In this document: positions 15,748 to 29,110 of the stretch, piece by piece
Layout: every line of letters begins with the position of its first letter
How positions within the stretch are numbered: position 1 is the first letter of the stretch
Assembly (NCBI GenBank): GCA_025963715.1
Contig: JAOQAG010000026.1
Coordinates: 144,327-208,326 of the forward strand
Length of the DNA stretch: 64,000 nt
Source: Bacteroidota bacterium
Lineage (GTDB): Bacteria; Bacteroidota; Bacteroidia; 2-12-FULL-35-15
Direction: 5' to 3'
Translations under genes and position numbers: made by a program
Notes under the pieces: model-generated
Databases searched by the model: none
Told to the model about the DNA's origin: nothing
Seen by the model: the letters and a program-made list of their open reading frames with translations, nothing else

Positions 15748-16106
15748 TGTATTGAAACGGTTTAAGTTTATAAATAATTTTCAGCCTTGTATAAACGAAG
15801 TACGTGCCACAAGCGTAATTATCTATTAAATCTCTTTATCAGATGATGTTTCCGGCAGTTTTGAATTTCCGGAACAAACGGAAAGTTGTAGAAAAAGTCA
15901 ACACTTTGTGGCTGAAAACGATGATTTTGCTCAACACAGCCGTAGTGGAAGTTAGCTGCACAGCCGCGAATGCTGTATTCGTTCTGCAGGCGCGAGACAA
16001 AGCGCCGACACCAAATACTCAGGCCGGTATCGTCAACTAATTCAATACAGCTTAATAAATGCTCCGACTGTTATATGTCGCATATTTGCCGCCATAAACT
16101 ATTTAT
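15748..16106. other. Intergenic region between PepSY-like gene and RAYT
   Basis: This 359-bp stretch has no convincing gene; a 65-codon ORF at 15843-16040 lacks any protein-like features. It holds the candidate sigma-54 element at 15795-15809. It also holds a partial REP-like sequence near 15984-16010 (GCAGGCGCGAG, the first bases of the REP arm found downstream of the transposase, followed by a hairpin GGCGC/GCGCC). Confidence 0.5.
15795..15809 (-). promoter_or_regulatory. Candidate sigma-54 promoter (TGGCACG-N4-TCGT)
   Basis: On the minus strand the -24 half is a perfect TGGCACG; the -12 half reads TCGT where TTGC is expected. The spacing is correct. It would start transcription about 35 bp before the PepSY-like start at 15747. 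The second half is imperfect, so this is a weak call supported by the adjacent sigma-54 activator gene. Confidence 0.35.
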
Positions 16107-16637
16107 ATGTCTGACAAATACAAAACAGAAGTTGGGAAATTATATTATGTAACACTCACAATTGTTGGGTGGATGGATGTTTTTACCAGGAAAGAATATG
16201 TTTATAATTTGATGAAGAATATAAAATATTGCCAGGAAAATAAAGGGCTGGAAGTATACGCCTATGTTATTATGAGCAATCATGTTCACATGGTTGCAAG
16301 ATCCAGTGAACAGCCATTAAATTTTTTGCTGGGTAATTTTAAAAGTTATACTTCAAAACAATTAATTACACAAATCGAATCAAATTCACAAGAAAGCCGG
16401 AAGGACTGGCTAATCCATATGTTTAAATTTTATGGAAGAGGAAATAGTCAAAATGAAGAAGTGCAATTTTGGCAAAACGGAAATCATCCGATTGAATTAA
16501 GAAGTTGGGAAGTAATAAAACAGAAAATAAATTATTTACACAATAATCCTGTAAAGCAAGGGATTGTGGCAAATCCACAAGATTATATTTACAGTAGTGC
16601 TTATGAATTCAGTGAAATAAAAGTGTTGGATTTGTAA
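16107..16637 (+). CDS. REP-associated tyrosine transposase (RAYT, TnpA_REP/Y1_Tnp)
   Basis: The protein is 176 aa, full length for the family. The Y1 transposase fold is shown by KLYYVTLTIVGWMDVFTRKE, the HUH motif in YVIMSNHVHMVA (His-Val-His) and the C-terminal KINYLHNNPVKQGIV-Y.YSSAYE block. The catalytic tyrosine is probably in the helix around EVIKQKINYLHNN. RAYTs are single-copy IS200/IS605 relatives that bind and cut REP sequences. Directly downstream (16644) is a large palindromic REPIN, and a second copy lies at 28895. There is no partner tnpB, so this is a domesticated RAYT rather than a mobile IS. Its base composition is AT-rich. Confidence 0.9.
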   Translation: MSDKYKTEVGKLYYVTLTIVGWMDVFTRKEYVYNLMKNIKYCQENKGLEVYAYVIMSNHVHMVARSSEQPLNFLLGNFKSYTSKQLITQIESNSQESRKDWLIHMFKFYGRGNSQNEEVQFWQNGNHPIELRSWEVIKQKINYLHNNPVKQGIVANPQDYIYSSAYEFSEIKVLDL

Positions 16638-16643
16638 TATCAC

Positions 16644-16762
16644 GCAGGCGCGAGTGTCCCACTCGTGCCATTCTATTTTATGGCATCTTGCCATTGTAAC
16701 GGTTATTAAATAAGGGCGGGACGCCCTTGAATAGTCGGCACGAGTGGGACACTCGCGCCTGC
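16644..16762. repeat. REPIN (two inverted REPs with two inner hairpins) beside the RAYT
   Basis: Perfect 26-bp inverted arms at 16644-16669 and 16737-16762. Each arm is itself a hairpin with stem CGAGTG/CACTCG and loop TCC. Between them lie two further hairpins: ATGGCA-TCT-TGCCAT (16680-16694) and AAGGGC-GGGAC-GCCCTT (16712-16728). The folded strand is a multi-branched, clover-like structure. It begins 6 bp after the transposase stop, and rhlE ends 44 bp further on. A related copy occurs at 28895-29009. Confidence 0.9.
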
Positions 16763-16806
16763 AACAAAAAAGCAGATCATACGATCTGCTTTTTCGTTTT
16801 ATCTGC

Positions 16807-28894: not shown

Positions 28895-29009
28895 GCAGGC
28901 GCGAGTGTCCCACTCGTGCCAAACTATTTTATGGCATCTTGCCATTACTAAAATACATAAGAGCGGGACGCTCTAAAAATAAAAAGGCACGTTGGGACAA
29001 CGCGCCTGC
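28895..29009. repeat. Second REPIN, with altered but still paired stems
   Basis: Left arm 28895-28920 is identical to the left arm at 16644. Right arm 28986-29009 has its stem changed to CGTTG/CAACG. The inner hairpins persist: ATGGCA-TCT-TGCCAT (28931-28945) and AGAGC-GGGAC-GCTCT (28960-28974) where the first copy has AGGGC/GCCCT. Both altered stems stay paired. There is no transposase next to it. Confidence 0.85.
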
Positions 29010-29110
29010 GCACAAAAACCCCCTGTCAGGGTTTAAAACCCGGCAGGGATAAAATTTTAACATACAGGAAATACACAGATTCGTGATGTCATCCTGAGCT
29101 TGTTGAAGGA

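Follow-up and report, generated by a model that had tools for sequence, protein, structure and literature searches.

The window analyzed here, a stretch of 64,000 nucleotides from a Bacteroidota bacterium, carries a gene for a REP-associated tyrosine transposase (RAYT, or TnpAREP) and, beginning 6 bp past its stop codon, a 119-bp element rich in hairpins, which raises the question of whether the two belong together. Very probably they do: what explains them best is a REPtron belonging to the Bacteroidota RAYT group, in which a RAYT with inverted REP ends is accompanied by about 100 dispersed, nonautonomous units and REPINs.

The gene lies on the + strand at positions 16107–16637 and was recognized by its open reading frame, profile matches, and motifs. 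Its 176-aa product matches the NCBIfam model NF047646 (REP-associated tyrosine transposase) with an E-value of 8.4e-29, above the curated cut-off, and the match to PF01797 also exceeds its cut-off. The protein has a Y1 HUH domain with an HxH motif and a single catalytic tyrosine in a Y-x-x-x-N-P context, and H59-V-H61, W122, Y143, N147-P148, and S163-S164 were invariant in an alignment of 23 sequences. The best PDB fold match of its AlphaFold2 model (pLDDT 93) was 4er8, the E. coli TnpAREP–REP complex; a search of solved structures by sequence gave weak matches only, 4er8 among them. The profile and fold matches bear out the original prediction of a full-length RAYT with an HUH motif. Among clade A RAYTs, dN/dS was ≤0.11 wherever dS was finite, with dS near saturation, and the genome (4.91 Mb in 51 contigs) holds one gene of the window RAYT's clade. 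Judged from its sequence, the window RAYT would be a single-copy, selectively maintained HUH-tyrosine nuclease, a part of the REPtron explanation that we hold, as a whole, to be very probable.

An ordinary IS200/IS605 insertion sequence with miniature derivatives could also leave palindromes at the borders of such a gene. In structure comparison, the Y1 HUH fold of the RAYT model is related to IS608 and ISDra2, which likewise have single-strand hairpin ends and a guide-like tetranucleotide 5′ of the hairpin. However, the IS200 model NF033573 scored 21.9 bits, far below its cut-off of 55, where NF047646 was exceeded. Multiple near-identical full-length copies, as of a multicopy insertion sequence, were not found, and a single RAYT of the clade stands against about 103 repeats. 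There are also two hairpins per end, and the ends here are mutually inverted, whereas those of IS200/IS605 elements are not inverted relative to each other. An origin of this kind is very unlikely.

The element beside the RAYT is a REPIN at 16644–16762, delimited by its arms, by folding, and by the list of doublets. The arms (16644–16669 and 16737–16762) are perfect 26-bp inverted copies of GCAGGCGCGAGTGTCCCACTCGTGCC, each of which alone forms the hairpin GGCGCGAGTG-TCC-CACTCGTGCC; two inner hairpins lie between them, ATGGCA-TCT-TGCCAT at 16680–16694 and AAGGGCG-(GGA)-CGCCCTT at 16712–16728. Sequence comparison thus agreed with the original prediction in the length of the element, its distance from the stop codon, and its perfect hairpin arms. 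When folded as single-stranded DNA, a check that had been proposed, the two strands reached −50.3 and −51.9 kcal/mol (z of −12.5 and −13.4), and none of 200 shuffles folded as well. All four of the hairpins that had been foreseen can form, but because the minimum-energy fold pairs arm with arm and lets the two inner hairpins branch off, the four-hairpin form is an alternative fold. The partial arm placed upstream, near 15984, is real: an 11-base exact match to the arm, GCAGGCGCGAG, was found at 15986–15996, within a unit remnant on the + strand (15986–16006) whose remaining bases are degraded and at which the covariance model scan gave no match. Downstream of the REPIN, between it and a convergent DEAD-box helicase gene, the palindrome AAAAAGCAGATCATACGATCTGCTTTTT (16769–16797) resembles a bidirectional terminator.

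Units extracted from the genome showed that what repeats is one half of the 119-bp element. Of the multi-branch element originally described, the REPIN therefore stands, while its basic unit is the half-element, occurring singly or in inverted pairs. The unit (54 nt) is composed of a foot, a hairpin H1, an AT-rich linker of the NNNYTATTY type, and a second hairpin H2, and two inverted units make a REPIN. Both units beside the RAYT were detected with covariance model R1. Unit 1 (16644–16697, + strand, 79.2 bits) has the foot GCAG, H1 at 16647–16669, a linker at 16670–16679, and an H2 of the T type, ATGGCA-TCT-TGCCAT, at 16680–16694. Unit 2, inverted (16710–16762, − strand, 72.4 bits), has the same foot, H1 at 16737–16759, a linker at 16729–16736, and an H2 of the G type, AAGGGCG-TCC-CGCCCTT, at 16712–16728. 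Three sequence types of H2 exist, ATGGCA-TCT-TGCCAT, AGGGCG-TCC-CGCCCT, and AGAGCG-TCC-CGCTCT, and they are interrelated by compensatory changes.

Such changes support both hairpins, in the genome itself as well as in relatives. Among 36 units of the genome, both-sided changes were observed at 9 of the 17 pairs, a level reached by none of 500 shuffles. When 75 matches found in the other species of this genus were aligned, they were observed at 15 of the 17 pairs, with 199 cells against 53 expected (0 of 500 shuffles); this second alignment was fitted to the covariance model and is biased towards structure, and slid controls were at most 52% paired. One pair of H1 is a G.T wobble in 36 of 36 units of the genome and in 69 of 73 from relatives. 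Because the G.T strand folds better (−9.4 kcal/mol for H1) than its complement, which has A.C at this pair (−7.1 kcal/mol), the repeat unit has a sense strand. The foot was GCAG in 41 of the 66 units scored and GTAG in one, so that the units of this family A lack the GT[AG]G foot of the GTAG-tagged REP superfamily; the sister family B does carry a GTAG foot. Upstream of the foot, G is scarce and Y frequent; CT occupies −5/−4 or −4/−3 in 21 of 58 cases, but CT within 8 bases of the foot was not in excess over shuffles (P = 0.24), and a target-site consensus is a hint only. A search of Rfam with the repeat identified no family; a hit to mir-547 (E = 0.055) fell far below the cut-off and was discarded as a chance match on a palindrome.

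A DNA search of the genome with the element gave about 39 places, and the covariance model recognized at least 103–104 units, with 150 of the roughly 1700 first-look candidates scored. The count of copies that had been suggested as a check thus gave about 103 units, and no lone pair. Units occur as inverted doublets and as singles; 22 doublets of 111–120 bp, within the limit of about 130 bp for a REPIN, accompany the many dispersed copies. By mechanical ORF calling with a minimum length of 110 aa, 34 of 38 sites fall outside any ORF, compared with a coding background of about 80%. Arm search and covariance model placed a second REPIN of the family in the window, at 28895–29009, with H2s of the T and A types; one of its arms carries a compensated H1 variant, GCGTTG-TCC-CAACGTGC.

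The link between RAYT and repeat was evaluated in 36 genomes of the genus. Units were found in 17 of the 25 genomes with a RAYT-like match and in none of the 11 without one (Fisher P = 1.5e-4, relatedness ignored), although copies related through descent weaken counting tests of this kind. This comparison had also been proposed beforehand, and its outcome differs from the one that would have spoken against the pairing, namely just two copies in the genome and relatives carrying the RAYT with no such element. Around all the clade A RAYTs of relatives, L056–L061 and L070, one unit lies upstream and one inverted unit downstream. The window locus is arranged likewise, except that its upstream end (15986) has decayed, the remnant taking the position of the intact upstream unit in these relatives, and that a full REPIN lies downstream; the gene is thus bordered by REPs that recur dispersed in the genome. 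The DEAD-box helicase neighbor is present in 35 of the 36 genomes; the sequence on the RAYT side of it has no similarity in any relative, and gene order there is not conserved.

Exceptions to the pairing exist. Three genomes without a clade A RAYT have units (20 in G019, 19 in G024, and 8 in G032), as would follow from RAYT loss, draft gaps, or import. These orphan units count against the REPtron explanation, as do two B hairpins in a genome with no RAYT match (G015) and the fact that neither insertion nor excision was observed. The orphan units would fit better with a RAYT that is a domesticated nuclease with a host task, such as hairpin or fork processing, the REPINs being old immobile passengers or bound sites. 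In most cases a genome has a single intact RAYT of a given clade, the gene is under purifying selection, and RAYTs have been viewed as domesticated in the published literature, all of which this explanation would accommodate. On the other hand, many copies are near-identical, perfect 26-bp arms included, and among species sharing the RAYT clade the number of units ranges from 3 to at least 103, a spread of about thirty-fold, with the lowest counts in fragmented or RAYT-broken genomes. Together, the near-identity and the spread within one RAYT clade indicate fairly recent amplification in the genome itself, and we regard domestication with immobile repeats as rather unlikely.

Further support for the REPtron comes from the divergence of RAYTs and hairpins together. 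Four RAYT clades were distinguished in the 36 genomes; the genes of each have inverted units to either side that carry a clade-specific hairpin, and RAYTs of other clades (41–49% identity) are bordered at equal distances by different hairpins. Family B has the foot GTAG and the hairpin GCGCTARGC.., family C the hairpin GGTCGGGATT-TGC-AATCCCGACC, and family D the hairpin AAGCGTAGCG-TCC-CGCTACGCTT. In the RAYT tree, A, B, and C each form supported clades, and the hairpin labels need 5 changes where the minimum is 4, which none of 200 shuffles attained. The genome studied here has a second RAYT, of clade B (L054; contig 7, 5611–6141, − strand), 46% identical to that of the window, and 29 exact B hairpins, whose doublets have no H2 and place two hairpins 8–18 bp apart. 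C hairpins were confined to four genomes. Across the phylum, 79 of 392 Bacteroidota genomes match the RAYT at E 1e-20 or better, and at most fetched loci inverted, locus-specific hairpins stand on both sides; H2 is present at some loci and missing from many RAYT ends. This absence, together with the B doublets, speaks against the REPtron explanation. More distant RAYT-like genes (L075–L078, 25–29% identity) lie amid hairpins of the TTGTTGGTGTTATCACCAACAA type, which make up a fifth family.

The same observations bear on whether the repeats might simply be transcription terminators or mRNA-stabilizing hairpins that were amplified otherwise, the RAYT being adjacent by chance. Sixteen of the 34 intergenic sites are between convergent genes, and so strong a fold would work in RNA too. 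Such a function, however, would not account for inverted units on both sides of RAYTs in several clades, for sequences matched to the clade, or for the conserved G.T wobble and foot, and the locus has a separate terminator-like hairpin just beyond the REPIN. We consider this very unlikely.

In relation to described systems, the window RAYT fits group 5 of Bertels, or TnpAY1 subclass 2.6, when judged by the features tabulated in PMC6006769. This subclass belongs to Bacteroidetes and is flanked by 'atypical secondary structures' with genomic copies, found by manual inspection, lacking GT[AG]G, and termed 'weaker'; its motifs are NH[LIV]H, WQ, YIH[QN]NP, and SS, and a segment is inserted between helix C and strand 4 (PMC6006769). 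The window RAYT has 176 aa against a mean of 179, an HUH–Y distance of 84 against a median of 82, the motifs NHVH, WQ, YLHNNP (L for I), and a C-terminal SS, and a long segment (93–120) preceding W122. Because of this fit, the kind of system is already known, and the original view of RAYT/REPIN pairs as known in proteobacteria was correct for that group but overlooked the Bacteroidetes subclass already in PMC6006769. Compared with the structures of the subclass as published, the unit here is defined: it has two hairpins that show covariation, a foot of GCAG or GTAG, and a sequence specific to the RAYT clade. Like the REPIN/RAYT systems of Pseudomonas and the BIMEs of E. coli, the repeats form inverted doublets, are of high copy number, intergenic, and private to one RAYT (PMC3116915, PMC8049555, PMC8266576), but they have two hairpins rather than one, a GCAG instead of a GTAG foot, and unlike second hairpins, and the irregularity of the stem is a conserved G.T wobble where the E. 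coli BIME REP has a bulge. No relevant later work on Bacteroidota RAYT repeats was found in the open-access literature, subscription papers and preprints lying outside the search, nor any description there of a two-hairpin REP, RAYT co-divergence, tip sharing between H1 and H2, or pairing of unlike H2s. REP recognition by RAYTs has been worked out just for the proteobacterial groups 2 and 3, and for group 5, which is common in Bacteroidota, 'atypical structures' had been the sole description of the repeats. With a defined unit, four RAYT–repeat pairs that diverged together, and two families in one genome, ready substrates are at hand for studying cross-specificity, and the system also suits the question of what decides REPIN copy number.

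The RAYT probably recognizes and spreads the repeat. By analogy with the TnpAREP proteins of E. coli, Stenotrophomonas, and Marinomonas and with IS608, we infer mobilization by single-strand recognition, cleavage, and amplification. The RAYT would bind the folded unit on the strand whose H1 has G.T rather than A.C, reading the foot and the hairpin tips; Y143 would cut beside the unit, the ends would then be joined, and REPINs would move or multiply in single-stranded form, probably at replication forks. A foot of GCAG rather than GT[AG]G counts against this mechanism: when the foot of the S. maltophilia REP was mutated to GCAG, the cognate enzyme still bound the REP but hardly cleaved it, in biochemistry limited to RAYT groups 2 and 3 (PMC8266576).

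The two hairpins of a unit are related at their tips. H1 and H2 within one unit differ on average at 2.75 of 9 tip positions, against 5.72 across clades, and none of 20000 permutations did as well; by clade, the signal is strong in C, clear in B, and in A and D partly common to both clades. This suggests that one protein surface reads both hairpins, by two monomers or in turn. In compact REPINs of the genome, the two H2s were of unlike types in 22 of 22 (7.3 alike pairs expected), and all six compact doublets seen in four further species likewise joined unlike H2s. Unlike H2s probably keep a compact pair from becoming one long perfect palindrome. Pairs spaced by 129 bp or more can have nearly alike H2s, and a universal rule was rejected, given like H2s in wider-spaced pairs of G022 and G024 and at the RAYT ends L058–L060 and L071. 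More speculatively, and with doubt on our part, the hairpin pair may be read via its common tip, by two enzymes or successive contacts, with the unlike H2s tagging the left and right ends; if so, the enzyme could distinguish one end from the other in an element that is otherwise symmetric.

Some other arrangements were seen among the copies. At L036, L041, L042, L043, L047, and L050, single units are repeated in tandem arrays with a period of about 110–250 bp, which, unlike REPINs, include flanking DNA. A third palindrome family, CCCTGTCAGGGTTTAAAACCCTGACAGGG-like, occurs in the window at 29019–29049 and also at L020, L021, L024, L025, L029, L053, and L055. These palindromes adjoin several REPINs with the repeated junction TTTTTTGTGC|GCAGG, possibly reflecting target preference or joint amplification, and a variant of them follows a third Y1 transposase gene on contig 12.
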